In this document: piece after piece, positions 17,540 to 45,998 of the stretch
How the letters are laid out: every line of letters begins with the position of its first letter
Numbering within the stretch: position 1 is the stretch's first letter
NCBI GenBank assembly: GCA_015065325.1
Contig: SVQO01000005.1
Coordinates: forward strand, 42,638-106,637
Length of the DNA: 64,000 bases
Source of the DNA: Oscillospiraceae bacterium
GTDB lineage: Bacteria > Bacillota > Clostridia > Oscillospirales > SIG627
Direction of reading: 5' to 3'
Made by a program: the position numbers and the translations under genes
Notes under the pieces: generated by a model
The model's database searches: none
The model's input: only the letters and a program-made list of their open reading frames with translations
Told to the model about the DNA's origin: nothing

Positions 17540-17555
17540 TTCGAGGTAAATATAA

Positions 17556-17680
17556 GCTCTTTGCAACTGACGGATAATTGTGGAGCACCACAAAGGAACA
17601 AAGAGCGCATTTTGGGGTTTTCCCTGTCAGCCGACCGTCTGGGCGCATTTAACTTCTCAAGTTAAGTGCGCCCTTTTTTA
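17556..17680 (+). ncRNA. ZTP (pfl motif) riboswitch with overlapping terminator
   Basis: CTGACGG...GTGGAGCACCAC...CAGCCGACCGTCTGGGC (pfl consensus core); 15-bp terminator GGGCGCATTTAACTT-CTC-AAGTTAAGTGCGCCC-TTTTTT sharing the GGGC. Confidence 0.9.
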
Positions 17681-29979: not shown

Positions 29980-30033
29980 GAAAAGTTGCTGTAAGCAAAC
30001 AAATATTTTTTTCTAAAAAAATGAAAATTTGTC

Positions 30034-30061
30034 TTGACAAATAAAAAGCGCGTGCTATAAT
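30034..30061 (+). promoter_or_regulatory. Sigma-A promoter of T-box 1 transcript
   Basis: TTGACA, 16 bp spacer, TATAAT. Confidence 0.85.
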
Positions 30062-30065
30062 ACAC

Positions 30066-30328
30066 CTAAAGGCGATGACGAAGACGGCTTTGAATTCTTT
30101 ATACAGAGAGTCGGTGGTTGGTGAAAACCGATATAAAGGATTTGAGTTTGCCCATCACTTCCGAGCCGGAGATCCGAACACCGTTTGGTTAGTAGACGTC
30201 TCCCGTGACTACTGCGTTAACGTATAAGGATTGTTTGATCCTGAGTGGCAGTTTTACTGCAATTTGAGTGGTACCGCGAGTAATGTAATTACCCGTCTCA
30301 AAGTTTTTCTTTGAGACGGTTTTTATTT
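30066..30328 (+). ncRNA. T-box leader 1, specifier read as ATC (Ile)
   Basis: Stem I with AGAGAG/GGTGGTTGGTG, T-box AATTTGAGTGGTACCGCGAG, terminator CCGTCTCAAAG...CTTTGAGACGGTTTTT. Specifier placed by the K-turn-proximal helix GAAG/CTTC: ...CCC-ATC-A-CTTC. Confidence 0.9.
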
Positions 30329-30349
30329 TTTGAAAAGGAGGATCCCGAA

Positions 30350-32614
30350 ATGTCTACGAAACAACCCAATGAATTAAACGAGGTAGCGCTGCGAATTCGC
30401 GAAATGCGTGAAATTTCCGGCTTTACCTGTGAAGAAATGGCAAAGAAGGTAGATGTTGATTTCGATCTTTACTGTCGCTATGAAAACGGAGAACTTGATT
30501 TTCCCTTTTCATTTTTGCATAAATGTGCTCTTGAATTCGGAATCGGAATTACCGAGCTTTTGGAGGGAAAGAGTGCAAAACTGACTTCTTATACCGTAAC
30601 CAGAAAGGGTTCGGGTCAGGTAACTGCGAAAGAAGATGGTATTACCATTCAAAATTTGGCTCACAACTTTCGCAACAAGATTGCTGAGCCCCATTGGGTC
30701 CGCTATGAATATGACCCCGCCCAACAAAACAGACCTATTCATCTTGCTACCCACAGCGGTCAGGAATTTGATCTTGTAATCAGCGGAAAACTGAAAGTGC
30801 AGGTTGGTGAACATGTAGAGATTCTGTCCGAAGGTGACAGTATTTACTACGATAGCTCTACTCCTCACGGTATGGTAGCGGTAGATGGCGAAGACTGTGT
30901 GTTCTGTGCAGTTGTGCTTCCCGGAGAAGAAACCAAAGAAGACGTTGTTCGTAATAGTCTCGTTACCGCTAAGAGCTCTCAGTCCTTGATTTGCGAGAAG
31001 TTCGTAAAGACTAAGGAATCCACCTCCGGTGTGTTGGAAAGTATAGATTTCCAAAACACCGATACGTTTAACTTCGGTTTTGATATTGTTGACGGTATTG
31101 CAGAAAAATATCCCGACAAGCTCGCCATGTTGCATTTGGATGTAAATAAGAACGAGCGCAGATTTACCTTTAAGGATATCAAGCAGCATTCCAACCAGTG
31201 TGCCAATTATTTTACTTCCCTTGGAATCAAAAGAGGGGATAAGGTTATGTTGGTGTTAAAGCGCCATTATCAGTTCTGGTTTGCTATGGTGGCGCTTCAT
31301 AAGATTGGTGCCGTTGCGATTCCTGCAACCAATCAGCTGAAGCAACACGATTTTGAATACCGTTACAATGCCGCTGAGGTTTCGGCGATCGTTTGTACGG
31401 CAGATGGAGACGTAGCCGATATAGCCGAGGCTGCTGCAAAAAATTGCTCCTCCGTTAAGAACCTGATTCTCGTTGGGGGACAAAAAGAGAACTGGCACGA
31501 TTTCAACGAAGAGTATAAGCTTTTCAGTAGAAAATTCGTTCGTCCCGAAAATGCCTCCGCAGGTGATGATACAGCTTTGATGTTCTTTACTTCTGGTACC
31601 ACCGGCAATCCCAAAATGGCTGCACACAAGCATACCTATGCCCTTGGCCATTTTGTAACCGCAAAGTACTGGCACTGCTGTGAAAGAGAAGGTTTGCATC
31701 TGACGATCTCCGATACCGGTTGGGGCAAATCTCTCTGGGGCAAGCTTTACGGTCAGTGGCTCTGTGAAGGTGCCGTATTCGTTTATGACTTTGATCGTTT
31801 TGATGAAAACGATATTCTGCCCATGTTTGCAAAATACAATATCACCACCTTCTGCGCCCCTCCAACGATGCTGAGAATGCTGATCCGCGGTGATCTTTCA
31901 AAATATGATCTTTCTTCAATCCATCATATGACTACCGCCGGCGAGGCGCTTAATCCCGAGGTTTTTAAGAAATTTAAAGAAGCAACCGGTCTCGAGATTA
32001 TGGAGGGATTTGGTCAGACCGAAACCACTCTTGCCATTGCCAATCTGTTCGGTACCGTTCCGAAGATCGGTTCTATGGGTAAGGCTTCTCCTCAGTTTGA
32101 TATCGACATCGTTGATCCGGACGGAAACAGTCTTCCCGCAGGCGAGGTTGGCGAGATCGTAATTCACACCGATAAGGTTGTTCCTTGCGGTTTGTTCAAG
32201 GAGTATTATCGCGATGATGAAAAGACCAAGGAAGCTTGGCATGACGGTCTTTACCATACCGGTGACACGGCTTGGCGCGACGAAGACGGTTTCTTCTGGT
32301 ACGTAAGCCGTGTGGATGACGTAATTAAATCCTCCGGTTACCGCATCGGTCCGTTCGAGATCGAAAGCGTGATCATGGAGCTTCCTTACGTTGTGGAGTG
32401 CGGCGTATCCGCAGTACCCGACGAGGTAAGAGGTCAGGTTGTTAAAGCGAGTATCGTATTAACGAAGGGGACGGTCGGAACCGACGAACTGAAAAAAGAG
32501 ATTCAGAACTACGTGAAGGCTCATACCGCTCCTTACAAATATCCCCGCGTTGTTGAATTTCGTGACGAGCTTCCTAAGACCATCAGCGGAAAAATTCAAC
32601 GAAATAAGCTTTGA
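30350..32614 (+). CDS. HTH(XRE)-cupin-AMP-forming acyl-CoA synthetase fusion; proposed 2-methylbutyrate-CoA ligase
   Basis: XRE HTH (IREMREISGFTCEEMAKKVDV), cupin (THSGQEFDLVISGKLKV...GDSIYYDSSTPHG), ACS motifs (FFTSGTTGNPKMAAH, GFGQTE, YHTGDTA, catalytic LPKTISGKIQR). Confidence 0.9.
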   Translation: MSTKQPNELNEVALRIREMREISGFTCEEMAKKVDVDFDLYCRYENGELDFPFSFLHKCALEFGIGITELLEGKSAKLTSYTVTRKGSGQVTAKEDGITIQNLAHNFRNKIAEPHWVRYEYDPAQQNRPIHLATHSGQEFDLVISGKLKVQVGEHVEILSEGDSIYYDSSTPHGMVAVDGEDCVFCAVVLPGEETKEDVVRNSLVTAKSSQSLICEKFVKTKESTSGVLESIDFQNTDTFNFGFDIVDGIAEKYPDKLAMLHLDVNKNERRFTFKDIKQHSNQCANYFTSLGIKRGDKVMLVLKRHYQFWFAMVALHKIGAVAIPATNQLKQHDFEYRYNAAEVSAIVCTADGDVADIAEAAAKNCSSVKNLILVGGQKENWHDFNEEYKLFSRKFVRPENASAGDDTALMFFTSGTTGNPKMAAHKHTYALGHFVTAKYWHCCEREGLHLTISDTGWGKSLWGKLYGQWLCEGAVFVYDFDRFDENDILPMFAKYNITTFCAPPTMLRMLIRGDLSKYDLSSIHHMTTAGEALNPEVFKKFKEATGLEIMEGFGQTETTLAIANLFGTVPKIGSMGKASPQFDIDIVDPDGNSLPAGEVGEIVIHTDKVVPCGLFKEYYRDDEKTKEAWHDGLYHTGDTAWRDEDGFFWYVSRVDDVIKSSGYRIGPFEIESVIMELPYVVECGVSAVPDEVRGQVVKASIVLTKGTVGTDELKKEIQNYVKAHTAPYKYPRVVEFRDELPKTISGKIQRNKL

Positions 32615-32637
32615 TGACGGAAAATTCCGCAATTCTC

Positions 32638-32666
32638 TTGACATACCTGCATAAAAGTGCTACAAT
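32638..32666 (+). promoter_or_regulatory. Sigma-A promoter of T-box 2 transcript
   Basis: TTGACA, 17 bp spacer, TACAAT. Confidence 0.8.
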
Positions 32667-32678
32667 AAATTAACTTTA

Positions 32679-32945
32679 AAGGCGTTGAAGAAGAGGGCAA
32701 AGCAAAGACCTTACAGAGAAGTGACGGTTGGTGCAAGTCACAAAGGCTTGATGTTTTGTTTGTAGCTTCTGAGCCGGGAGGAAGAAACCGAAAGGGAGTA
32801 GAACCTCTCCGTGACGGCTGCGTTAATGCATACGGATTGTTGGATCCTGAGTGGCAGTTTGACTGCAATTTGAGTGGTACCGCGGGTGTTTGAAATTTTG
32901 CACTCGTCTCAAAGTAAAGACTTTTGGGACGAGTGCTTTTTTGTC
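32679..32945 (+). ncRNA. T-box leader 2, specifier read as GTA (Val)
   Basis: T-box AATTTGAGTGGTACCGCGGG; terminator GCACTCGTC...GACGAGTGCTTTTTT; stem I helices CAAAGCA/TGTTTTG and GAAG/CTTC bracket loop TTT-GTA-G. Confidence 0.9.
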
Positions 32946-32963
32946 CCGGGATATGGAGTTAGT

Positions 32964-35252
32964 ATGAATAAGATTACAGGTCTTGAATTTAAGATTCAAG
33001 AAATGGCTGCTCGTATTCGCGAGTTGCGTCAGATCCAAGGGCTTTCTCCCGAAGAAATGGCAATCAAGACCGACGTATCGGTTGAGGAGTACCTGGATTG
33101 CGAAAACGGAAGAAGCGATTTGAACTTTGCTTTTATTTACCGCTGTTCTCTTGCCCTGAACGTTAACGTTACCGATATTATCGAAGGTCATAGCCCTAAT
33201 CTGAAATCCTATACCTTGACCAGAAACGGCGAGGGACAAGAGGTTACGGATGCGCACGGAATGACCTATTATAATATGGCATATTCCTTTCGCAACCGTA
33301 TTGCCGAGCCTTTGTATGTTAAGATCCGTTATGACGAAGCGGCTCAAAACCGCGACATCGAGCTGACCACACACTCCGGTCAGGAGTGTGATATCGTCAT
33401 TGAGGGGCATCTTATGGTACAGATCGGCGAACATAGAGAGGTGCTTGGTCCCGGTGACAGTATCTACTACGATAGCTCAGCTCCCCACGGTATGATCGCC
33501 GTTCAGGGAGAAGACTGTATTTTCTACGCCATCGTTTTGAATCCTACGGGCGAACCGATCCCCGAACTTACCAGCCCCAAGGCGATTGCCTCCGGAACGG
33601 TAGGAAAGAAGGACACCAAGCCTCGTATTTATCAGAATTTTATCGACGTAGTAGAAAATGAAAATGGTACACCTGTTTCCATCAAATTTAAGAATACCGA
33701 GAAGTTCAATTTTGCTTTCGACTTGATCGATGAGCTTGCTGCACGCGAACCTAACAAGCTTGCGATGCTTCACGTTGCAAGAGATCTGACGGAAAGAAGA
33801 TTCACCTTTAAGGATATCCAGAAGGCGTCCAATCAGTGCGCGAATTATTTTAAATCACTTGGTATTAAAAAGGGCGATAAGGTGATGCTGATTTTGAAGC
33901 GTCATTATCAGTTCTGGTTTGCAATGCTTGGCTTGAATAAGCTTGGAGCTGTTGCAATTCCTGCTCCAAATCAGCTTTTAGAGCATGATCTGGAATACAG
34001 ATTCGGCGCCGCCGGTGTGAAAGGTATCATTTGTACTGCTGATGGCGATCTTGCTGAACACGCCGATCGCGCAGCTGCTAACCACCCTGAGCTTTCCATA
34101 AAACTGATCGTAAACGGAAAGAGAGAAGGATGGCGCTCCTTTGATGAAGAGTACACGCTTTACAGCTCTCATTTCAATCGCACCGAGGATTCTCCCTGCG
34201 GCGACGACCTGCTTTTGATGTTTTTTACCTCCGGTACGTCCGGATATCCTAAGATTGCAGCACACAATCACAAGTATCCCCTGGGTCATTTCCATACTGC
34301 TAAGTATTGGCATTGCGTTGATCCGGACGGACTGCATTTTACGATTTCCGATACCGGTTGGGCAAAGTCTATGTGGGGAAAGCTTTACGGTCAGTGGCTT
34401 TGTGAAGCAGCGATCTTTGTATATGACTTTGATCGTTTTGATGCTTCGCAGATTCTTCCTATGTTTGCCAAGCATCAGATCACAACTTTCTGTGCTCCTC
34501 CTACGATGCTTCGCATGATGATCAAGCAGGACATTTCCCGGTTCGATCTTTCATCGGTTCGTCATATGACCACTGCCGGCGAGGCCTTGAACCCTGAGGT
34601 TTACCGTCAATTTGAAAAGGCAACCGGTCTTCAGATCCTTGAAGGATTCGGTCAGACTGAGAGCACGATGATCGTTGGTAATATGATTGGTGCCTCTCAT
34701 AAGATCGGTTCTATGGGTAAACCCGCGCCGATTTATGACGTTGAACTTGTTGATGCCGACGGCAATGCCGTTGCCAACGGTGAACCAGGAGAGGTTGTAA
34801 TTAACCTTAAAAACGGTGCTCCTTGCGGTCTTTTCGTTGGCTATTATAATGATGATGAAAAAACCAACGAAGCGATCCATGACGGTTATTATCATACCGG
34901 AGACCTTGCTTGGCGTGACGAGGATGGATTCTTCTGGTACGTTGGCAGGGCAGATGACGTAATTAAGTCTTCCGGCTATCGAATCGGGCCCTTTGAGATT
35001 GAAAGTGTTATCATGGAGCTTCCTTATGTTCTGGAATGCGGTGTTTCAGCTGCTCCTGATGAAGTCAGAGGACAGATCGTAAAGGCGAGTATCGTGTTGA
35101 CGAAGGGTACCGAGGGCACCGAAGAACTGAAAAAAGAAATTCAGAATTACGTAAAGGAGCATACGGCTCCCTATAAGTATCCCAGATTGGTTGTATTCCG
35201 CGATGAACTTCCGAAAACCGTCAGCGGAAAAATTCAGAGAAATAAGCTTTAA
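32964..35252 (+). CDS. HTH(XRE)-cupin-AMP-forming acyl-CoA synthetase fusion, paralog of the previous gene; proposed isobutyrate-CoA ligase
   Basis: Same three-domain layout and near-identical C-terminal region (SSGYRIGPFEIESVIMELPYV...LPKTVSGKIQRNKL). Confidence 0.9.
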   Translation: MNKITGLEFKIQEMAARIRELRQIQGLSPEEMAIKTDVSVEEYLDCENGRSDLNFAFIYRCSLALNVNVTDIIEGHSPNLKSYTLTRNGEGQEVTDAHGMTYYNMAYSFRNRIAEPLYVKIRYDEAAQNRDIELTTHSGQECDIVIEGHLMVQIGEHREVLGPGDSIYYDSSAPHGMIAVQGEDCIFYAIVLNPTGEPIPELTSPKAIASGTVGKKDTKPRIYQNFIDVVENENGTPVSIKFKNTEKFNFAFDLIDELAAREPNKLAMLHVARDLTERRFTFKDIQKASNQCANYFKSLGIKKGDKVMLILKRHYQFWFAMLGLNKLGAVAIPAPNQLLEHDLEYRFGAAGVKGIICTADGDLAEHADRAAANHPELSIKLIVNGKREGWRSFDEEYTLYSSHFNRTEDSPCGDDLLLMFFTSGTSGYPKIAAHNHKYPLGHFHTAKYWHCVDPDGLHFTISDTGWAKSMWGKLYGQWLCEAAIFVYDFDRFDASQILPMFAKHQITTFCAPPTMLRMMIKQDISRFDLSSVRHMTTAGEALNPEVYRQFEKATGLQILEGFGQTESTMIVGNMIGASHKIGSMGKPAPIYDVELVDADGNAVANGEPGEVVINLKNGAPCGLFVGYYNDDEKTNEAIHDGYYHTGDLAWRDEDGFFWYVGRADDVIKSSGYRIGPFEIESVIMELPYVLECGVSAAPDEVRGQIVKASIVLTKGTEGTEELKKEIQNYVKEHTAPYKYPRLVVFRDELPKTVSGKIQRNKL

Positions 35253-35277: not shown

Positions 35278-36357
35278 ATGAAATATTCCATTTCTGTTAC
35301 CAAGACCACTTCCCCTAAGGAGAAGCCCGCAGACGAGTCCAAGCTCGGATTCGGAAAGCTTTTTACCGACCATATGTTCCTGATGGATTACACGCAGGAA
35401 AAAGGTTGGCACGACGCCAGAATCGTTCCTTTCGGTCCGATTCCTTTGCATCCCGCATCCACAGTCTTCCACTATGGCGTGGAGATCTTTGAGGGGATGA
35501 AGGCTTATCGCAAGGCAAACGGTGATATTTCCTTGTTCCGTCCTATGGAGAACATTAAACGTCTGAACAACAGTGCAGAGCGTCTTTGCCTTCCCGAATT
35601 GGACGAGGAGGGTTGCCTTGATATTCTTATGACTCTGGTTGAACTGGAAAAGGATTGGGTTCCTCACTCTGAAGGTACCAGCCTTTACCTTCGTCCTTTT
35701 ATGTACGGTAACGATCCTCACCTCGGCGTTCACGCCGTTAAAAATGCAACCTTTGCCGTGATTTGTTCTCCCGTTGGCGCTTACTATGCAGAAGGAATCA
35801 ATCCCGTTAAGATTGCTATCGAGTCTCAGGATGTTCGTGCTGTGAGAGGCGGTACCGGCTACGCAAAGTGTGGCGGCAACTATGCTGCATCCCTGCGCGC
35901 AGGTGAGAAAGCAGAGAAGAACGGTTATACTCAGGTTCTTTGGTTGGACGGCGTTGAAAGAAAATATATTGAAGAAGTCGGTGCGATGAACGTAATGTTT
36001 AAGATCGATGGAAAGATCGTAACTCCCGAGTTGACCGGTTCCGTTCTCCCCGGTATTACAAGAAAGAGCTGCGTTGAGCTTCTGCGCTCTTGGGGCTACA
36101 CCGTCGAAGAAAGACTGATCTCCGTTGACGAGCTCTTTGAGGCTGCCGCAAACGGCAAGCTGGAGGAAGCTTGGGGCACCGGTACTGCTGCCGTTGTATC
36201 TCCCATTGGTCAGCTTTTCTACAAGGGTGAGGAGTACGTCGTTTGCGACAATAAGATCGGTGAGCTCACTCAGAAGCTCTATGATAATCTGACCGGAATC
36301 CAGTGGGGGAAAGTCGAGGATGTGAACGGCTGGACTGTTAAAGTCTGCAATGGATAA
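35278..36357 (+). CDS. ilvE: Branched-chain amino acid aminotransferase
   Basis: VFHYGVEIFEGMKAYRK, LYLRPFMYG, GYAKCGGNYAASL, EVGAMNVMF. Confidence 0.95.
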   Translation: MKYSISVTKTTSPKEKPADESKLGFGKLFTDHMFLMDYTQEKGWHDARIVPFGPIPLHPASTVFHYGVEIFEGMKAYRKANGDISLFRPMENIKRLNNSAERLCLPELDEEGCLDILMTLVELEKDWVPHSEGTSLYLRPFMYGNDPHLGVHAVKNATFAVICSPVGAYYAEGINPVKIAIESQDVRAVRGGTGYAKCGGNYAASLRAGEKAEKNGYTQVLWLDGVERKYIEEVGAMNVMFKIDGKIVTPELTGSVLPGITRKSCVELLRSWGYTVEERLISVDELFEAAANGKLEEAWGTGTAAVVSPIGQLFYKGEEYVVCDNKIGELTQKLYDNLTGIQWGKVEDVNGWTVKVCNG

Positions 36358-37009
36358 ACGAATTACGATTCTTGCAGGTCATTACGGAAGCGGAAAAACA
36401 AATATTGCGGTGAATCTGGCTTTCTTTTTGAAACGAGAAGGGAAGAACGTGTCCGTTTGTGATCTTGATATTGTAAATCCGTATTTTCGCACAAAAGACA
36501 GTTTGGAGGATTTTGAAAAAGCAGGAATTCGGTTGATTTCCTCCGAGTTTGCCAACACCAACGTTGACGTTCCGGCTTTGCCGCAGGCAATGTATGCAGT
36601 AATGGATGACAGAGAGAGCCATTTTGTACTGGATATCGGTGGTGACGATCGAGGTGCTTTGGCACTTGGCAGGCTTGCCCCTTCCATTCTGGAGGAGAAT
36701 AATTACGAGATGCTGCTTGTCGTTAATTTTTTCCGCCCGCTTACCAAAGACAGTCAGTCGATGCTTGAGGTGATGCGGGAAATGGAGCAGGCAGCGGGTA
36801 TTCGCTTTACCGGAATCGTGAATAATTCCAACTTGGGAGAAGAAACGACTCCCGATGACGTGATTTCCACGGTTGAAAAGGTTCAGGCTTTTTCCGAACT
36901 TTGCGGGTTACCTGTTGTGATGACGTCTGTGCGAGAAGAACTTTATGAAACTTTGCGGGGAAAGATCAATGATCTTTTTCCGCTGAAGCTGCAAAAAAAG
37001 TATTATTGA
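36350..37009 (+). CDS. P-loop ATPase, MinD/ParA-like
   Basis: ILAGHYGSGKTNIAVNLAFFLKREGKNVSVCDLDIVNPYFRTKD (Walker A and switch region). Confidence 0.8.
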   Translation: MDKRITILAGHYGSGKTNIAVNLAFFLKREGKNVSVCDLDIVNPYFRTKDSLEDFEKAGIRLISSEFANTNVDVPALPQAMYAVMDDRESHFVLDIGGDDRGALALGRLAPSILEENNYEMLLVVNFFRPLTKDSQSMLEVMREMEQAAGIRFTGIVNNSNLGEETTPDDVISTVEKVQAFSELCGLPVVMTSVREELYETLRGKINDLFPLKLQKKYY

Positions 37010-37031: not shown

Positions 37032-37238
37032 ATGGCAAAACTTACATTCAATACTGATTTTTGTAAGGGTTGCGGTCTTTGTGTCGATGCTTGTCCTAAA
37101 AAGCTGATCAGACTTGCCCCCGATAAGATCAATAAGAAAGGTCACCATCCTGCAGAAATTACCAAGCAGGAAGATTGCGTTGGCTGTGCCTTCTGTGCTC
37201 AGATGTGTCCCGACTGCGTAATCAAGGTTGAGAGGTGA
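37032..37238 (+). CDS. 2-oxoacid:ferredoxin oxidoreductase delta subunit, 2x[4Fe-4S] ferredoxin
   Basis: CKGCGLCVDACP and CVGCAFCAQMCP. Confidence 0.92.
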   Translation: MAKLTFNTDFCKGCGLCVDACPKKLIRLAPDKINKKGHHPAEITKQEDCVGCAFCAQMCPDCVIKVER

Positions 37239-37243
37239 AGAAT

Positions 37244-38296
37244 ATGGCAGAAAAGATTTTGATGAAGGGTAACGAGGCGATTGCGGAAGCTGCGATTCTT
37301 GCAGGTTGCCGTCATTACTTTGGATATCCGATTACTCCTCAGACCGAGGTTGCGGCTTATATGGCGAAGAAAATGCCCAAAATCGGCGGAACATTCCTTC
37401 AGGCAGAAAGCGAAATTGCCGCTATCAATATGGTTTACGGCGTTGCTTCTACCGGTAAGCGTGTTATGACCTCATCTTCCAGCCCCGGAATTTCTTTGAA
37501 GGGCGAGGGCTTATCTTATCTTGCCGGTGCAGACCTTCCCGCACTCGTTGTAAACGTACAGCGCGGCGGACCCGGTCTCGGCGGTATTCAGCCCAGTCAG
37601 TCCGACTATTTTCAGGCGACGCGCGGCGCAGGTCACGGCGACTTCCACATGATTGTTCTGGCACCCAGCTCCGTACAGGAGATGGCAGAGCTCACTGTGA
37701 AAGGCTTTGAGCTTGCTGATACTTACCGTATGACCACTATGATTTTGGCTGACGGTACCATGGGTCAGATGATGGAGCCTGTATCTCTTGATTTTGCCGT
37801 AAAGGAAGCACCTGAAAAGCCTTGGGCTACTACCGGAACCAAAATGGAAAGAGAGCATAACATTGTGAATTCTTTGTTCCTCGCTCCCGAGGCTCTCGAA
37901 AAATTTAATTTTGCTCGTTATGACCGTTATCGTGTTATCGAGGAAAATGAAACCATGTACGAAGAGTACATGATGGACGATGCCGAGATTTGCATCGCAG
38001 CATTCGGCATTGCAGCTCGTGTTGCAAAGAATGCCATTAACGAAGCGCGCAAAGAGGGGATCAAGGTTGGTATGATCCGACCCATTACTCTTTGGCCCTT
38101 CCCCAAGGCTCCCTTTGCGAAGGCTGCCGAGAAGGTGAAATCCATTATTTCCGTTGAGCTTTCCATGGGTCAGATGATTGAGGACGTAAGACTTGCGACC
38201 GAATGCAAGGTTCCCGTAACCCTTTGCAATCGTGTAGGCGGTATGATTCCTTCTCCCGAGCAGGTTTTGGAAGCCATCAGAAATGCGCAGAAGTGA
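37244..38296 (+). CDS. vorB: 2-oxoacid (probably 3-methyl-2-oxobutanoate):ferredoxin oxidoreductase alpha subunit, VorB-type
   Basis: MKGNEAIAEAAILAGCRHYFGYPITPQTEVAAYMA, QAESEIAAINMVYGVASTGKRVMTSSSSPGISL. Confidence 0.88.
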   Translation: MAEKILMKGNEAIAEAAILAGCRHYFGYPITPQTEVAAYMAKKMPKIGGTFLQAESEIAAINMVYGVASTGKRVMTSSSSPGISLKGEGLSYLAGADLPALVVNVQRGGPGLGGIQPSQSDYFQATRGAGHGDFHMIVLAPSSVQEMAELTVKGFELADTYRMTTMILADGTMGQMMEPVSLDFAVKEAPEKPWATTGTKMEREHNIVNSLFLAPEALEKFNFARYDRYRVIEENETMYEEYMMDDAEICIAAFGIAARVAKNAINEARKEGIKVGMIRPITLWPFPKAPFAKAAEKVKSIISVELSMGQMIEDVRLATECKVPVTLCNRVGGMIPSPEQVLEAIRNAQK

Positions 38297-38306
38297 GGTG
38301 TGAACT

Positions 38307-39062
38307 ATGGTAGTATTTGATAGACCCCATGCAATGGCAGAAGTGCCGATGCATTATTGTCCCGGCTGTACCCACGGTATCGTTCACCGTCTGGTTGCCG
38401 AAGTAATCGACGAGCTTGGTATTGAAGGCAAGACTATCGGTGTAGCTCCCGTCGGCTGTTCCGTTATGGCTTACGACTATTTCAATTGCGATATGATCGA
38501 GGCTGCACACGGCAGAGCTCCTGCAGTTGCAACCGGCGTGAAGCGTGCAGATCCTGAAAATCACATTGTGTTTACTTATCAGGGCGACGGCGATCTCGCA
38601 TCTATCGGTATGGCTGAAACGGTTCATTCCGCGGCAAGAAACGAAAACATTACCATCATCTTTATCAATAACGCGATCTACGGTATGACCGGCGGTCAGA
38701 TGGCACCGACCTCTCTCCCCGGGCAGGTTACCCAGACCTCTCCCTACGGCAGAGATACCAACGCTTGTGGATTTCCCATTCGTGTCTGTGAAATGCTCTC
38801 CGAACTTGACGGACCCGAATATCTTGAGCGTGTAACCGTAAACAGCGTAAAGAATATTAAAAATGCAAAGAAGGCCATTAAGAAGGCTTTCCAGAACCAG
38901 ATCGATGGAAAAGGCTTTTCTCTGGTAGAGGTCCTCTCTTCCTGCCCCACAAACTGGGGTATGACTCCTCAGAACGCCTTGAAGTGGATTGATGAAAAGA
39001 TGATCCCTTACTATCCTCTCGGTGTTTATAAGGATCGCAGTGCAAAGGAGGAGAACAAATGA
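38307..39062 (+). CDS. vorA: 2-oxoacid:ferredoxin oxidoreductase beta (TPP) subunit, VorA-type
   Basis: YCPGCTHGIVHRLVAEV, TPP motif GDGDLASIGMAETVHSAARNENITIIFINNAIYGMTGGQMAPTS. Confidence 0.88.
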   Translation: MVVFDRPHAMAEVPMHYCPGCTHGIVHRLVAEVIDELGIEGKTIGVAPVGCSVMAYDYFNCDMIEAAHGRAPAVATGVKRADPENHIVFTYQGDGDLASIGMAETVHSAARNENITIIFINNAIYGMTGGQMAPTSLPGQVTQTSPYGRDTNACGFPIRVCEMLSELDGPEYLERVTVNSVKNIKNAKKAIKKAFQNQIDGKGFSLVEVLSSCPTNWGMTPQNALKWIDEKMIPYYPLGVYKDRSAKEENK

Positions 39063-39595
39063 GCGCAAAACAGTATTTGCTTTCCGGATTTGGCGGACAG
39101 GGTATTCTGTTCACCGGTAAAATGTTGGCATACAAAGGTCTGATTGAAGACAAGCAGGTAAGCTGGCTTCCTTCTTACGGTCCCGAAATGCGTGGTGGTA
39201 CTGCAAGCTGCAGTGTCATCATCAGCGATGAGCCCGTTGGTTCTCCCATCGTGTCAAAGCCTGATATCCTTGTGGCAATGAACCTTCCTTCTTTGGATAA
39301 GTTTGAAGACAGCGTTGTACCCGGCGGTATGATCTTTTACGACTCCTCCTTGGTAGAGAGAGAGGTGAAGCGTACGGACGTCAAGGTTTATCCCGTTCCC
39401 GCAACGAAGCTTGCCGGTGAAAATGGCTTTCCGACGCTTGCCAATATGATCTTGATGGGGAAAATCTTCAAGACTCTCGATGAGTTTGACGAGGAGCAGG
39501 TTAAGAAGACCTTGACCAAAGTGATCTCCGCGAAGCGCGCTGATATGATCGATGTGAACTTGAAGGCTATGAGCCTTGGTGCGCAATTCGAATGA
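39059..39595 (+). CDS. vorC: 2-oxoacid:ferredoxin oxidoreductase gamma subunit
   Basis: [21 protein letters not shown]...[22 protein letters not shown]. Confidence 0.9.
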
Positions 39596-39641: not shown

Positions 39642-39656
39642 CCTTGCAAGTTTTTA

Positions 39657-39912
39657 AATGCGATGAAGGAACTATCTTCCTCTCGTAGCATCTTTCAGAG
39701 AACTGTCGGGTGGTGCAAGACAGCAAGATGTGGGGGGCGGAGTCTCATTCCGGAGCAGAGTTGCTGAATTACAGTAAGCGACTACGGCTTGCCCCGTTAT
39801 CATGGCAAAGGGTTTGTTAGAACTCGTAGAGATGGCCGTTTTTTCGGCAAACAGGGTGGTACCGCGGATTATTTCGTCCCTGAGGTTTCAAACCTCAGGG
39901 ACTTTTTTCTTG
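39657..39912 (+). ncRNA. T-box leader 3, specifier read as CTC (Leu)
   Basis: GCGATGAAGGAA...AGAGAACTGTCGGGTGGTGCAAGACAG; T-box GGGTGGTACCGCGGA; terminator GTCCCTGAGGTTTCAAACCTCAGGGACTTTTTT; specifier CTC-A next to GGAA/TTCC helix. Confidence 0.9.
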
Positions 39913-39939
39913 AGGTTTTCAAAGAGAAAGGATAAAGAT

Positions 39940-41319
39940 ATGAAACAGATCAAAGTAGCAGACACGACTCTTTGTGCCGAAAACGGCGTATTTGGCTTTA
40001 AAGAAAAATTGGAGATCGCACGACAGCTTGATAAATTATGTGTGGATACGATTGAGCTTCCAGAAATCGAAAATGCTAAGGCTGACTGTCTTTTTGTCCG
40101 TACGGTTGCCTCCTTTGTGAAAAACAGTGTTATCTCTGTTGCTGCAGGAAGCAGTAAAGAAAGTGTTTCCAATGCGATCAGTGCGTTGACAACCGCAAAA
40201 AATGCGCGCATTCGAATTGAGGTGCCTGTTTCTCCGGTTGGAATGGAATATATTGCGAAAAAGAAGCCCGATCCTATGTTGGCTTGGATCGAAGAAGCGA
40301 TCCGCTTGGCAAAAGAAGCGGTTGATGACGTTGAATTTTGCGCTGTGGATGCTACCCGTTCAGAGGAAGATTTCCTGTCTAAAGCGATTGCTGTAGCAGT
40401 AAACGCAGGTGCAACCGCAGTTGCAGTGTGCGACAGTGCGGCAGAAATGCTACCTGATGATTTTGCCGGATTTGTCAAAAAGATTTCGGAAGGAATTTCC
40501 GTACCCGTTTCCGTTCGTTGCGATAATGCAAACGGTTTGGCAGCAGCTGCCTCCATTCTCGCGATTCGCGCCGGTGCTTCCTGTATCAAAACAGATGTAA
40601 GCGGCGTATATGCACCTATGTCTGACGTAGCTTCCATGCTGAAGAATTGCGGTAACCGCTATTCGTATTCTGCAAGAATCAATCAGACTGAGCTTTTCCG
40701 TATTTTGAAGCAGATCTCTTGGATTGCCAATAACGCCAAGGATGAAAAATCTGCAATGACGGTTGCAACAAAAGAGGATATTGAATCCTTCTTGAATGAA
40801 AGTGATGATCAAACTACGGTAATTTCTGCAGTTGCAAAACTCGGTTATGACTTATCTGAGGAAGATCAGAAGCGCGTTTATGAAGAATTTTTGCGTGTTG
40901 CTGCCAAGAAAACTGTTGGTTCTAAGGAGCTTGATGCCATTGTTGCCAGCGTTGCACTTCAAGTGCCCGCTACCTTTAAACTGGCAAATTACGTAATTAA
41001 TAACGGAAATATTATTTCTGCAAGCGCGCAGATCACCTTGGAAAAAGGCGAGAGTATTTTGCAGGGGGTATGTATCGGGGATGGCCCGGTTGATGCAGCG
41101 TTCCGCGCCATTGATCAAATTATCGGTCATCATTATGAGCTTGACGATTTCCAGATACAGTCCGTTACCGAGGGAAAGGAAGCAATGGGATCTGCTTTGG
41201 TTAAACTTCGCGCAGGTGGCAAGGTATATTCAGGAAACGGTATTTCTACCGATATTATCGGTGCCAGCATTCGCGCTTACCTGAATGCTGTGAACAAAAT
41301 TGTATATGAGGAGGCCTAA
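39940..41319 (+). CDS. LeuA-like (2-isopropylmalate synthase family) protein with degenerate active site and retained C-terminal regulatory domain
   Basis: ADTTLCAENG in place of DTTLRDGEQ; DDVEFCAVDATRS; C-terminal GDGPVDAAFRAIDQI...GNGISTDIIGASIRAYLNAVNKI typical of the LeuA allosteric domain. Confidence 0.82.
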   Translation: MKQIKVADTTLCAENGVFGFKEKLEIARQLDKLCVDTIELPEIENAKADCLFVRTVASFVKNSVISVAAGSSKESVSNAISALTTAKNARIRIEVPVSPVGMEYIAKKKPDPMLAWIEEAIRLAKEAVDDVEFCAVDATRSEEDFLSKAIAVAVNAGATAVAVCDSAAEMLPDDFAGFVKKISEGISVPVSVRCDNANGLAAAASILAIRAGASCIKTDVSGVYAPMSDVASMLKNCGNRYSYSARINQTELFRILKQISWIANNAKDEKSAMTVATKEDIESFLNESDDQTTVISAVAKLGYDLSEEDQKRVYEEFLRVAAKKTVGSKELDAIVASVALQVPATFKLANYVINNGNIISASAQITLEKGESILQGVCIGDGPVDAAFRAIDQIIGHHYELDDFQIQSVTEGKEAMGSALVKLRAGGKVYSGNGISTDIIGASIRAYLNAVNKIVYEEA

Positions 41320-41322
41320 AGG

Positions 41323-43824
41323 ATGAAACTTTCCTTTTCTACAAAAGGTTGGCACGATAGCGATTTCGACGGTTTTTGCAGCATTGCTGAAGAACTGCAT
41401 TTTCAGGGGATTGAGCTTCATAACATTTATAATCGCCTTTTTACAGATAAAGATGGTGCTTTTCACGATTATGCCGCCGGTGCAACCTTGCGTAAGCTCT
41501 ATGAAAAGAATCTGAAGATTCCTTGCATTGACACGATTACCGATGTTGGCGATGCTTCTTTGCAGGAACGAGCAGAGGATGAAATTGAAAAGTGTATTCG
41601 TATTGCTTCAAATCTTCATATTCCTTATATCAGATTGCGTGCAAATGACACTGAAAATGCAGAACAAACGGTAGATACGGTTTTCCGCTTGATTGAAAAG
41701 GTTTTGCCGAAGGCCAAGGAGTGTTCTGTTACTTTGCTTTTGGAAACCACCGGACCTTTTAGTGATACTTCCGTTCTTCGTGATCTTTTGGACCGCTTTG
41801 CCAGCAATTATTTTGCAGCTCTTTGGCAGATGTCTGCTGCATATTTCGGCAAAGGCGAGACGCCCGAAGAGGTCATCAAAAATCTTGGTGCTTACATTCG
41901 ACATGTGCAGTTTAACGATGCTCGCAGAACGGAAAATGGCGTTGAGTATTGTCTGGCAGGAGAAGGTGATCTTCCCATTAAAGATATTATTCTCGCACTT
42001 CGATCCGTAAATTACGACGGATTTGTTTCTTTGGTTTGGGATCCTACCTGGTGCAGCGAGCTGGATGATATGGAGATCATTTTCTCTCAGTTCGTTGGTT
42101 TCATGAATCAGTTTGGTGATCCCTCGCAAAATCAGAAAACCTTGTATTATAACCGTGCAAGAACCGGAAAGTTTGTTTGGAAAAAGGATCTTTTGATCGA
42201 CGCTACTTTTTCCGATGTTCTTGACCGTATGGTTGAAGAATTTCCCGATCAGTACGCATTCAAATATACCACTTTGGATTATACCAGAACCTATAGCCAG
42301 TTTCGCGACGATGTGGATACTTTTGCCAGAAGCTTGATCGCACTCGGTGTAAAAGCCGGCACCCACGTTGCAGTTTGGGCGTCAAATGTTCCTCAGTGGT
42401 TTATCGCATTTTGGGCTACCGTAAAGATCGGTGCAGTTCTTGTTACGGTAAATACAGCTTATAAAATTCATGAGGCAGAATACTTGCTGCGTCAATCTGA
42501 TACTCATACCTTGATCATGACTGAGGGGGCAAAGGATACCCATTACGGCAAAATCATTGCCGAGCTTTGCCCTGAACTTGAATCTTTAAAAACCGGTTGC
42601 TCTCTGCACGCAAGACGTTTGCCGTTCCTTCGCAACGTTATTACCGTCGGTTTCAAGCAGAAGGGCTGTATGACCTGGCAGGAGTCCTTGGAGCGTGCCA
42701 GTCAGATTCCAATGGAAGAGGTTCGCCGTATGGCGGCAGCCGTTGACAAGAACGACGTATGTAATATGCAATATACCTCCGGTACCACTGGATTTCCGAA
42801 GGGCGTTATGTTGACGCATTACAACGTAGTTAACAACGGAAAGTATATCGGTGACCATATGGATCTCTCTACTGCTGACCGTATGATGATACAGGTTCCT
42901 ATGTTCCACTGCTTTGGTATGGTGCTTTCTATGACTGCGGCAATGACCCACGGTGCAACGATGTTTCCGCTGCCGTATTTTTCACCTAAGCCCGCCCTTG
43001 CTTGTGTTCATAACGAGCATATTACAACGTTTAACGGCGTTCCTACCATGTTTATCGCGATGATGCAGCATCCTGATTTTGAAAAGACCGATTTTTCACA
43101 TATCCGTACCGGAATTATGGCAGGTGCAAATTGCCCTGCGGATCTGATGAAAAAGGCTGCGGATGTTATGAATATGAAGGAGATCGTATCTGTTTACGGT
43201 CAGACCGAGGCTAGCCCAGGCTGTACCATGAGCAGCTACTATGACTCTCTCCAGGTTCGTACCGAGACAGTAGGAAGTGCCTTTGCTAACGTTGAATGCA
43301 AAATCGTTGATCCTGAGACCGGTCTTGATTGTCCCGACGGCGTGAACGGCGAATTTGTTGCTCGCGGATATAACCTTATGAAGGGATATTATAAAATGCC
43401 CGGTGCAACAGCCTCCACGATTGATGATGACGGATGGCTCCATACCGGTGACCTTGCTTGCAGAACTCCGGAAGGAAACTACTTGATTACCGGCCGCTTG
43501 AAGGATATGATTATCCGCGGCGGTGAGAATATTTATCCTAAGGAAATCGAGGAATTCATTTACACCAATCCCAAGGTTCGTGATGTGCAGGTGATCGGCG
43601 TTCCGGATAAACAGTACGGTGAAGAAATCATGGCGTGCATTATCCTAAAAGAAGGTGAAACTATGACCGTGGATGAAATGAAGTCCTTCGTTGGAGCAAG
43701 TATGGCGCGTCATAAGGTTCCTCGTTACGTTGATTTTGTTGATCAATTCCCGATGAATGCTGCCGGTAAAATTTTGAAATATAAAATGCGCGAAGAAGCG
43801 GTCGAAAAATTGGGTCTGAAGTGA
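41323..43824 (+). CDS. TIM-barrel (AP endonuclease 2/sugar-isomerase-like) domain fused to AMP-forming acyl-CoA synthetase; proposed isovalerate-CoA ligase
   Basis: N-terminal about 260 aa resemble COG1082-type TIM barrel; C-terminal ACS motifs MQYTSGTTGFPKGVMLTHYN, VYGQTEASPG, GWLHTGDLA, catalytic NAAGKILKYKMR. Confidence 0.87.
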   Translation: MKLSFSTKGWHDSDFDGFCSIAEELHFQGIELHNIYNRLFTDKDGAFHDYAAGATLRKLYEKNLKIPCIDTITDVGDASLQERAEDEIEKCIRIASNLHIPYIRLRANDTENAEQTVDTVFRLIEKVLPKAKECSVTLLLETTGPFSDTSVLRDLLDRFASNYFAALWQMSAAYFGKGETPEEVIKNLGAYIRHVQFNDARRTENGVEYCLAGEGDLPIKDIILALRSVNYDGFVSLVWDPTWCSELDDMEIIFSQFVGFMNQFGDPSQNQKTLYYNRARTGKFVWKKDLLIDATFSDVLDRMVEEFPDQYAFKYTTLDYTRTYSQFRDDVDTFARSLIALGVKAGTHVAVWASNVPQWFIAFWATVKIGAVLVTVNTAYKIHEAEYLLRQSDTHTLIMTEGAKDTHYGKIIAELCPELESLKTGCSLHARRLPFLRNVITVGFKQKGCMTWQESLERASQIPMEEVRRMAAAVDKNDVCNMQYTSGTTGFPKGVMLTHYNVVNNGKYIGDHMDLSTADRMMIQVPMFHCFGMVLSMTAAMTHGATMFPLPYFSPKPALACVHNEHITTFNGVPTMFIAMMQHPDFEKTDFSHIRTGIMAGANCPADLMKKAADVMNMKEIVSVYGQTEASPGCTMSSYYDSLQVRTETVGSAFANVECKIVDPETGLDCPDGVNGEFVARGYNLMKGYYKMPGATASTIDDDGWLHTGDLACRTPEGNYLITGRLKDMIIRGGENIYPKEIEEFIYTNPKVRDVQVIGVPDKQYGEEIMACIILKEGETMTVDEMKSFVGASMARHKVPRYVDFVDQFPMNAAGKILKYKMREEAVEKLGLK

Positions 43825-43952: not shown

Positions 43953-44255
43953 ATGACAAATTGGCATAACGAAATGACTGACCGTTTAATGAAGGTGCTT
44001 TCTGAATTGAATACGCCCGAGGAATGCTATTCTTTTTTGGAGGATCTTTGCACGATCAAAGAGATCCAGGATATGTCCCAGCGCCTTGAAATTGCTATTT
44101 TGCTTAAAAATGGAACCAATTACCAGGAGATTAACAAGAAGACCGGTGTCAGTACGGCTACGATCAGCCGTGTTAACAAATGTCTTTCTTATGGAAGCGG
44201 TGGATATCAAGCCGTTCTGGAAGTAATGGGGAAAAAAGAGGAAATGAAGAAATGA
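43953..44255 (+). CDS. TrpR-family regulator, YerC/HisR-like
   Basis: 100 aa; FLEDLCTIKEIQDMSQRLEIAILLKNGTNYQEINKKTGVSTATISRVNKCL; first gene of his operon. Confidence 0.88.
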   Translation: MTNWHNEMTDRLMKVLSELNTPEECYSFLEDLCTIKEIQDMSQRLEIAILLKNGTNYQEINKKTGVSTATISRVNKCLSYGSGGYQAVLEVMGKKEEMKK

Positions 44256-45373
44256 GTACGTTCAATTTGCGCAAAGAGGAAGAGATTATCAATCGTCTCC
44301 GCTCGCTTTACGAATTATATGGGTATGCTCAATTTAAAATGAGCAAGTTTGAAGAATACGATCTTTACGTCAGAAATAAAGATTTTTTGATTTCTGACGG
44401 CATTATCACGTTTACCGATACCAACGGAAAGCTTTTGGCACTTAAGCCCGACGTAACGTTGTCTATTATTAAAAATTTTCGTGCATCGGAAGGTGTAGTC
44501 GATAAAGTTTATTATAATGAAAACGTTTACCGTATTTCAGGAGGAACCCATTCCTTTAAGGAGATTTTGCAGCTTGGCGTTGAATGCATGGGGCACGTTG
44601 ATACGTACTGTCAGTTCGAGGTTTTAAGCCTGGCGGCAAAGAGTCTTTCCTTGCTGTCCGATGAGGTGGTCCTGGACGTTTCCGATTTTGGGATTTTGAC
44701 CGATCTTTTGGAATCCTTTGGGATCAACACTTCTTTGAAAAAAGAAATTTTAGTCGCCATCGGCGAGAAGAACGTTCACGATTTGGAGCGCATTTGTGCC
44801 AATGGCGGTATTTCTGCTTATGACACCGGTATTTTAACGGAACTGGTTCGGCTTTACGGAAATCCGACAGAGGTTTTGCCAAGGATTAAAACGATTTTAT
44901 CCGATAAGATCGACAGCGAAAAACTGAATGTATTGGAGACTCTGTGTAAGAGTCTTTGTGACAGCGGTTTCAGTAATATGGTCCGCATTGATTTTTCAAT
45001 CGTCAATGGTGTTGACTATTATAACGGAATCGTATTCAAAGGGTTCGTGAAAGGAATTCCTTCTGCCGTTCTTTCCGGAGGGCAATACGATGGCCTGATG
45101 AAGAAAATGCAGAGAAACGCAGGAGCGATCGGCTTCGCTCTGTATTTGGATCTGATGGAGGACCTTTTGATCGAAAAGAAGACTTTTGACGTTGATTCGC
45201 TGATCGTATATACCGATAATGTCTCTTTTTTTGATATCGATTTGATTTTGAAAAAACTGATTTCCGAAGGGAAAACGGTTTTGGCGCAGAGAAGCGTACC
45301 TGCGAAAATTAAGTACAAGGAAATGTGGAAATTAACGGAAAGCGGGGTTGAACTTCTTGAAAGAAATGCTTAA
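44252..45373 (+). CDS. hisZ: ATP phosphoribosyltransferase regulatory subunit
   Basis: HisRS-like class II fold (LKPDVTLSIIKNF, VLSGGQYDGLMKK) directly before short-form HisG. Confidence 0.9.
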   Translation: MSTFNLRKEEEIINRLRSLYELYGYAQFKMSKFEEYDLYVRNKDFLISDGIITFTDTNGKLLALKPDVTLSIIKNFRASEGVVDKVYYNENVYRISGGTHSFKEILQLGVECMGHVDTYCQFEVLSLAAKSLSLLSDEVVLDVSDFGILTDLLESFGINTSLKKEILVAIGEKNVHDLERICANGGISAYDTGILTELVRLYGNPTEVLPRIKTILSDKIDSEKLNVLETLCKSLCDSGFSNMVRIDFSIVNGVDYYNGIVFKGFVKGIPSAVLSGGQYDGLMKKMQRNAGAIGFALYLDLMEDLLIEKKTFDVDSLIVYTDNVSFFDIDLILKKLISEGKTVLAQRSVPAKIKYKEMWKLTESGVELLERNA

Positions 45374-45998
45374 CATCGCCCTTCCGAAAGGGAGACTTGG
45401 AGAACGGGTATATTCAATGTTTGCTAAGGCTGGTTTTGAGTGCCCTCAAGTAATGGAGAACACCAGAAAACTTATTTTTGAAAATGAAGAACGTGCCGTT
45501 CGCTACTTTTGGGTGAAACCCTCTGACGTAGCGATTTACGTAGAGCGTGGCGCAGCAGACCTCGGCGTTGCCGGAAAAGATATTCTTCTTGAGTATAATC
45601 CGGATGTCTATGAGCTCTTGGATTTGAAAACCGGAATTTGTAAAATGGCAGTGGCGGCACCGGTTGATTTTCGCGACGACGTTCGGAAAACCTTAAAGGT
45701 TGCAACGAAATTTTCCAATATTGCCAAGGATTACTATTTGAAGAAGGGTAGAGACATCGATATCATTCATTTGAACGGCTCTATCGAAATTGCACCGATT
45801 TTGGGACTGACAGATGTGATCGTCGATATCGTAGAAACAGGGAAGACGCTGAAGGAAAACAATCTGGAGGTTTTTGAGGATATCGTACCGATCAGTGCAA
45901 GGTTGATTGCCAATAAATCCGGCTTTAAATTTAAAAACGAAGCAATCAGAAAGATTATGGAAAGTCTTTCCGAACAGTTAAAGGAGGAGAACGCATGA
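45366..45998 (+). CDS. hisG: ATP phosphoribosyltransferase, short form
   Basis: MLNIALPKGRLGERV, ERGAADLGVAGKDIL, DVIVDIVETGKTLKEN. Confidence 0.95.
   Translation: MLNIALPKGRLGERVYSMFAKAGFECPQVMENTRKLIFENEERAVRYFWVKPSDVAIYVERGAADLGVAGKDILLEYNPDVYELLDLKTGICKMAVAAPVDFRDDVRKTLKVATKFSNIAKDYYLKKGRDIDIIHLNGSIEIAPILGLTDVIVDIVETGKTLKENNLEVFEDIVPISARLIANKSGFKFKNEAIRKIMESLSEQLKEENA

Follow-up and report, generated by a model that had tools for sequence, protein, structure and literature searches.

Organisation of the locus

The window, by which we mean the whole 64,000-nucleotide stretch that was analysed, carries on its forward strand genes for three acyl-CoA ligases, the 2-ketoisovalerate:ferredoxin oxidoreductase (VOR), the branched-chain aminotransferase IlvE and a homologue of 2-isopropylmalate synthase (LeuA), here called psLeuA. 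The first two ligases are HTH-cupin-acyl-CoA ligases. Ligase 1 (30311..32614), whose likely substrate is 2-methylbutyrate (Ile route), is MbcS-like at 449 bits against a cut-off of 850; ligase 2 (32874..35252), whose likely substrate is isobutyrate (Val route), contains the Pfam domains HTH, Cupin_2 and AMP-binding, and its translation probably starts near 32964. IlvE (35278..36357; NF009897, 485.6 bits, cut-off 307) is followed by the subunits of VOR: a VorD-like 2[4Fe-4S] ferredoxin subunit (37032..37238; CKGCGLCVDACP...CVGCAFCAQMCP), the alpha subunit, named VorB in NCBIfam (37235..38296; NF005507, 541.9 bits, cut-off 399), the TPP-binding beta subunit (38307..39062; PF02775, 77.7 bits) and the gamma subunit (39059..39595; PF01558, 132.2 bits). 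Next come psLeuA (39940..41319) and the third ligase (41323..43824), a fusion of an AP_endonuc_2-type TIM barrel with an AMP-forming acyl-CoA ligase. Among the homologous loci, psLeuA often, though not always, has VOR, IlvE and the HTH-cupin ligases in its vicinity.

Several other features lie in the window. A ParA/CbiA-like P-loop NTPase (36350-37009) is situated between the ligase/IlvE genes and those of VOR, as in most loci where VOR was seen. In the two HTH-cupin-acyl-CoA ligase fusions (30266-35252, both MbcS-like) the cupin/HTH part may be a sensor of its own, parallel to psLeuA for the Leu ligase. A TrpR-family regulator (43953-44255; Pfam Trp_repressor, 97 bits) is located between the third ligase and hisZ, and a short-form hisZ-hisG pair (44180-45998) lies directly downstream, so that by coincidence a dead paralogue of histidyl-tRNA synthetase is encoded beside a dead LeuA. 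A ZMP/ZTP riboswitch is found at 17553-17651 (54 bits).

T-box leaders and the proposed branched-chain amino acid route

T-boxes switch genes on when their cognate tRNA is uncharged. The leader upstream of psLeuA (39654..39884, forward strand) matches Rfam RF00230 with 110.3 bits (gathering score 93); its specifier codon, CTC for Leu (39744-39746), was read from an alignment of 89 homologous leaders, and its antiterminator core is GGGTGGTACCGCG (39854-39866). An earlier note on this DNA had placed psLeuA under a Leu T-box, and both the score and the conservation of the specifier bear this out: 84 of the 89 aligned leaders have CTC and the remaining five CTG, all of them Leu codons. In 90 of 100 loci the core precedes psLeuA by about 80-250 nt. 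Contig ends truncate some of the other loci, and in four (L041, L047, L075 and L090) no T-box was found upstream, and psLeuA starts about 130 nt after IlvE, so that it may be read together with the VOR-IlvE genes. In the alignments inspected, CTC is also the specifier in the leaders of TIM-ligases that lack psLeuA.

Two further T-box-like leaders of approximate extent, both below the Rfam gathering score, precede the HTH-cupin ligases on the same strand: one with the Ile specifier ATC (30026..30278, core 30266-30278) and one with the Val specifier GTA (32632..32884, core 32872-32884). They were recognised by the core motif and specifier pattern common to the homologous leaders, which, with those of the window included, specify Ile (ATC) ahead of ligase 1 and Val (GTA or GTC) ahead of ligase 2.

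Since T-boxes respond to uncharged tRNA, the three ligases are most likely biosynthetic. The gene content points most readily to a reductive-carboxylation route from 2-methylbutyrate to Ile, from isobutyrate to Val and from isovalerate to Leu, in which VOR would act as the carboxylase and IlvE as the transaminase. The third ligase would accordingly be an isovalerate-CoA ligase, an assignment that draws on its Leu T-box, on the neighbouring VOR and IlvE genes and on the two sister ligases for Ile and Val. That bacteria of the rumen and hindgut form Leu, Val and Ile from isovalerate, isobutyrate and 2-methylbutyrate has been known since the 1960s, and these isoacids are fed to cattle. Carboxylation of isovalerate to leucine in the rumen is established (Allison 1962 and 1966, cited in PMC7356843). 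That pathway starts from the same precursor and shares the steps proposed here (acid to acyl-CoA to 2-oxoacid to Leu); it was defined biochemically, whereas the present route is deduced from genes. In the papers searched, no description of the genes or of the LeuA-derived subunit proposed below was found.

Domains and active site of psLeuA

The open reading frame of psLeuA spans 39802-41319. The homologues start at the equivalent of the ATG at 39940, which follows GAGAAAGGATAAAGAT, in agreement with the gene limits given by the earlier note, and the protein is 459 amino acids long. It consists of a barrel (residues 1-245; 39940-40674), a linker without the SGIHQDG subdomain (residues 246-325; 40675-40914) and a putative leucine allosteric domain (residues 326-459; 40915-41316). 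In Pfam, HMGL-like (residues 14-243, 107.5 bits) and LeuA_dimer (residues 328-454, 107.8 bits) both score above their cut-offs. The NCBIfam LeuA models also match, all of them far below their curated cut-offs (NF002086: 277.7 bits vs 532; TIGR00973: 241.1 bits vs 598.7).

We aligned psLeuA with E. coli LeuA and ten canonical LeuAs from relatives; the E. coli reference served for residue numbering only. DTTLRDGEQ is replaced by DTTLCAE--, so that the catalytic Arg of the RDG motif (R13) is C and the metal-binding Asp (D14) is A. The metal-binding H202-T-H204 has become R-C-D, and the whole metal site (the Asp of RDG and the HxH pair) is therefore absent, with A14, R202 and D204 in its place. 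The segments GERAGN and SGIHQDG are both deleted, the latter being the acceptor subdomain. The C-terminal motifs GDGPVDA...STDIIGAS...NAVNK are retained. Each of the motif losses listed in the earlier note is thus seen in the alignment, and its statement that the overall LeuA alignment and the C-terminal allosteric domain are kept agrees with the two Pfam matches and with GDGPVDA. As the defining features of the enzyme were tested and are lacking, psLeuA falls outside LeuA in the catalytic sense.

The full-length AlphaFold2 model (pLDDT 86.6, 86 homologues) has eight barrel strands and a BBBA-BBBA regulatory fold. The structure prediction proposed earlier gives an intact modelled barrel. The closest solved relatives of the model belong to the LeuA/MAM family and include the leucine-bound 3fig; the barrel lies 1.8 A from that of 3rmj. 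The LeuA_dimer fold also matches the regulatory domain of 3f6g, which was deposited as alpha-isopropylmalate synthase and which we take to be the isoleucine-binding domain of Leptospira citramalate synthase. A phmmer search of the PDB with the regulatory domain of psLeuA alone gave no match, and a mixed profile did match. Concerning the leucine domain itself, psLeuA has the features of LeuA_dimer, namely the GxGP(V/I)DA loop, the modelled BBBA-BBBA fold and alignment to 3fig. This loop, in which G382 and P383 are invariant across the family and which reads GDGPVDA in the window, aligns with its counterpart in M. tuberculosis LeuA, for which the leucine pocket and its loop have been described (PMC11057210).

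Distribution, phylogeny and selection

Some match to psLeuA is present in 54 of 58 related genomes, and 20 of them, the window genome included, have a close psLeuA (E < 1e-90). A public genome collection yielded 80 psLeuA loci with 48-69% identity, nearly all from metagenome-assembled genomes of ruminant or other gut samples. Together these give about 100 loci from gut Clostridia, in which the public set may repeat a few genomes of the 58-relative set. A sample of 399 genomes of the phylum contained psLeuA in one further genome only (G110, 44% identity), so that psLeuA is mostly a feature of this order. All psLeuAs form one clade (SH-aLRT 100), joined by a long stem to the canonical LeuAs of related Clostridia. 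With a single exception, the relatives have a member of this clade, a separate canonical LeuA or neither.

The SGIHQDG segment and the GER loop are missing in all 100 loci. R or K usually takes the place of metal D14, the HxH pair has gone, and many different residues occur at the metal positions. D9, R145 and D170 are kept in 100 of 100 loci (same alignment), and D8, S98, E103, K109, D137, R140 and D165 of the barrel are invariant or nearly so; such conservation may indicate a ligand-binding or catalytic role of the barrel. The distribution of conservation between the domains is reversed relative to canonical LeuA: mean identity is 59% in the barrel and 47% in the regulatory domain of canonical LeuAs, vs 48.5% and 72% in psLeuAs, and divergence in the barrel is 0.75 and 1.86 times that in the regulatory domain, respectively. 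Between close psLeuA pairs, dN/dS is about 0.05-0.12 in the barrel, as against 0-0.05 in the regulatory domain. These values indicate strong purifying selection on the sequence, relaxed in the barrel and tightened in the leucine domain; together with the reversed conservation they suggest that psLeuA is needed and that the leucine domain is the part most strongly held.

The protein thus combines descent from an enzyme, loss of the catalytic residues and purifying selection, and its description as a pseudoenzyme that has lost the catalytic site of isopropylmalate synthase, already put forward in the earlier note, is strongly supported by the motif losses, the conservation pattern, the clade and the selection on its sequence. 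Homologues with canonical motifs at the psLeuA position, which would have spoken for a local error, were looked for among the relatives and none was found. The conservation and dN/dS comparison across relatives, likewise suggested beforehand, gave a single clade of about 100 loci with low dN/dS, which rules out a local sequencing error or a pseudogene.

The classical leucine route in genomes with psLeuA

No aconitase-family protein, IlvD or second LeuA_dimer protein was found in the window genome, which is 88.7% complete, so that its absences taken by themselves carry little weight. Lacking an aconitase-family protein, it has no LeuC. LeuC is absent from this genome and from 18 of its 19 relatives with psLeuA: an aconitase of LeuC size is present in one of 20 genomes with psLeuA vs 24 of 38 without (Fisher p = 1.5e-5, not corrected for relatedness) and, among genomes at least 90% complete, in none of 12 vs 20 of 30. 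The exception (G020) has an apparent leuA-leuC-ilvD region on a contig other than that of psLeuA. In the same genome, contig C29 contains psLeuA twice in mirror image, probably as an assembly palindrome.

A canonical LeuA elsewhere in the window genome was also considered and rejected. The only candidate, which lies at the edge of contig C15 and is truncated there with the loss of its C-terminal half, is a distant HMGL-like fragment. It has an intact RDGQQ and scores 52 bits with LEU1_arch, for which the cut-off is 485. The sequence searched had a few residues at its front that are foreign to the genome; they leave the matches unaffected, as these begin only at residue 61.

The adjacent TIM-barrel/acyl-CoA ligase

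The assignment of the third ligase is based on Pfam, adjacency, the metal tetrad and the ligase core, which is invariant (e.g. YTSGTTGFPKG and GQTE). In all 99 loci whose DNA extends past psLeuA, the next gene 3' of it is a TIM-ligase. The gap between the two ranges from -4 to 25 nt (median 2), and 17 loci have a 4-nt overlap, as expected of translationally coupled subunits.

The TIM part (41323-42177) has lost most of its metal ligands, its tetrad being E-Q-Q-V instead of E-D-H-E. It is sugar-isomerase-like; its metal site is intact in proteins without psLeuA and decayed in most of those beside it. E-D-H-E is found in 17 of 17 proteins of the first kind (ligases without psLeuA and three free-standing homologues) and is kept by only 24 of 99 ligases of the second. 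In the trees of either domain, the ligases that accompany psLeuA group apart from those that lack it. The fusions without psLeuA (L143-L151) are the same two-domain ligase and are mostly under a Leu T-box too, but have an intact E-D-H-E and no adjoining psLeuA gene; their existence means that the ligase can in places do without psLeuA.

Pairwise distances of the psLeuA barrel and of the ligase TIM domain are correlated (r = 0.90, partial 0.79), more closely than in the comparison with ParA of the same clusters, which has a similar rate (r = 0.60). Such correlated divergence suggests a contact between barrel and TIM domain; shared descent and similar rates may also account for it. The distances of the AMP-ligase domain correlate only poorly with those of the TIM domain in the same protein (r about 0.1-0.2; 0.64 in a smaller set), which may reflect recombination or conversion of the ligase domain.

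The earlier note had proposed that psLeuA is a partner subunit of either this ligase or VOR. The ligase half of the proposal is favoured by the invariable adjacency and the correlated divergence. VOR was rejected as the main partner because in many loci it is not adjacent but located elsewhere.

Proposed role of psLeuA and alternative explanations

We consider it probable that psLeuA is a leucine-sensing regulatory subunit of the adjacent ligase and provides leucine feedback on the isovalerate route. Building on what was computed (the lost catalytic site, the conservation, the adjacency, the Leu T-box and the missing LeuC), this reading postulates isovalerate as the substrate, leucine binding, complex formation and the sign of regulation. 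Under leucine starvation the Leu T-box would permit transcription of psLeuA and the ligase. The ligase would convert isovalerate to isovaleryl-CoA, VOR would carboxylate this to 4-methyl-2-oxopentanoate, and IlvE would convert the latter to leucine. Plentiful leucine would then bind the dimer-forming C-terminal domain of psLeuA, and the leucine-bound protein would shut the ligase off through contact between the dead barrel and the TIM domain. Feedback inhibition, which LeuA gave to the classical route, would thus be restored at the new first step. The role of leucine sensor, also anticipated in the earlier note, is supported indirectly, by the retained and tightened allosteric domain and the conserved Leu T-box; the overall idea of that note is largely upheld, with the ligase and not VOR as the partner.

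We give even odds to a more specific history, in which LeuA became the leucine-sensing subunit of an isovalerate-CoA ligase in a clade of gut Clostridia. The feedback valve would have been moved, and the dead barrel would have come to lie against the TIM barrel of the ligase, whose metal site then decayed in most lineages, leaving two pseudo-barrels and one active ligase.

Other explanations fit parts of the data. A regulatory or scaffold partner of the ligase with a different ligand or sign, i.e. an obligatory activator or stabiliser, or a sensor of isoleucine, 4-methyl-2-oxopentanoate or isovaleryl-CoA, shares the adjacency and correlated divergence with the ligase; HisZ both activates its enzyme and mediates its inhibition (PMC9734150), and the fold also matches the regulatory domain of 3f6g. 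We regard this as unlikely, as the regulatory domain is of the LeuA lineage and the leader is specific for Leu. Somewhat less likely still is a new enzyme whose barrel performs a different, metal-free chemistry, perhaps on the product of the ligase. The (near-)invariant D8, S98, E103, K109, D137, R140 and D165 and the low dN/dS of the barrel would suit it; however, homologues differ freely at what used to be the metal and catalytic positions, none of the 100 loci has kept the acceptor subdomain, and conservation is lower in the barrel than in the regulatory domain.

That psLeuA senses leucine for a target other than the ligase, e.g. VOR activity or transcription, appears improbable: the VOR genes are often close by, but the ligase is the one constant neighbour, many loci have VOR at another place, and Pfam identifies no DNA-binding domain in psLeuA. 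An active isopropylmalate synthase with unusual motifs would explain the overall LeuA architecture, yet it is very hard to reconcile with the loss of the metal ligands, the catalytic Arg and the SGIHQDG subdomain; moreover, 19 of 20 genomes with psLeuA have no LeuC, so that its product would lead nowhere. Nothing was found in favour of a decaying pseudogene or an assembly artefact, which the purifying selection and the frame kept open in about 100 loci already refute and to which we attach next to no credence.

Relation to known systems and significance

Compared with LeuA (TIGR00973/PRK00915; 3rmj, 3ewb, 3eeg, 1sr9, 3fig), psLeuA has the same HMGL-like barrel, LeuA_dimer domain and fold, and joins the clostridial LeuA clade. 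It differs in lacking the catalytic Arg, metal Asp, His pair and SGIHQDG, in missing all LeuA equivalog cut-offs, and in that the window genome has no leuC to use the product. In its proposed mode of action psLeuA resembles HisZ, the regulatory subunit of the short-form ATP phosphoribosyltransferase, which holds the end-product pocket (PMC9734150). Both would be non-catalytic subunits that control the first enzyme of a pathway and are encoded beside the catalytic subunit, the role of psLeuA being the predicted one. HisZ, however, has an unrelated fold (it is a paralogue of histidyl-tRNA synthetase), acts on a phosphoribosyltransferase, and its mechanism has been measured, whereas that of psLeuA is deduced. 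Likeness to HisZ in function and descent from LeuA are two separate matters. A literature search for a LeuA pseudoenzyme, a T-box with VOR or a T-box with an acyl-CoA synthetase gave nothing relevant, which does not prove absence from the literature.

The locus offers likely genes of the isoacid route, namely three acyl-CoA ligases, each with the T-box of its own amino acid, together with VOR and IlvE. Annotation pipelines may label psLeuA as 2-isopropylmalate synthase by mistake and, as a result, assign the classical leucine pathway to organisms without it. If our reading is true, the locus would give genetic access to the isoacid route to branched-chain amino acids, which has long been known. 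It suggests that a bypass acquired its end-product control by taking over the dead first enzyme of the very pathway that the bypass replaced, and it presents a testable case, comparable with HisZ, of a metabolic enzyme that may have become the allosteric subunit of an unrelated enzyme.
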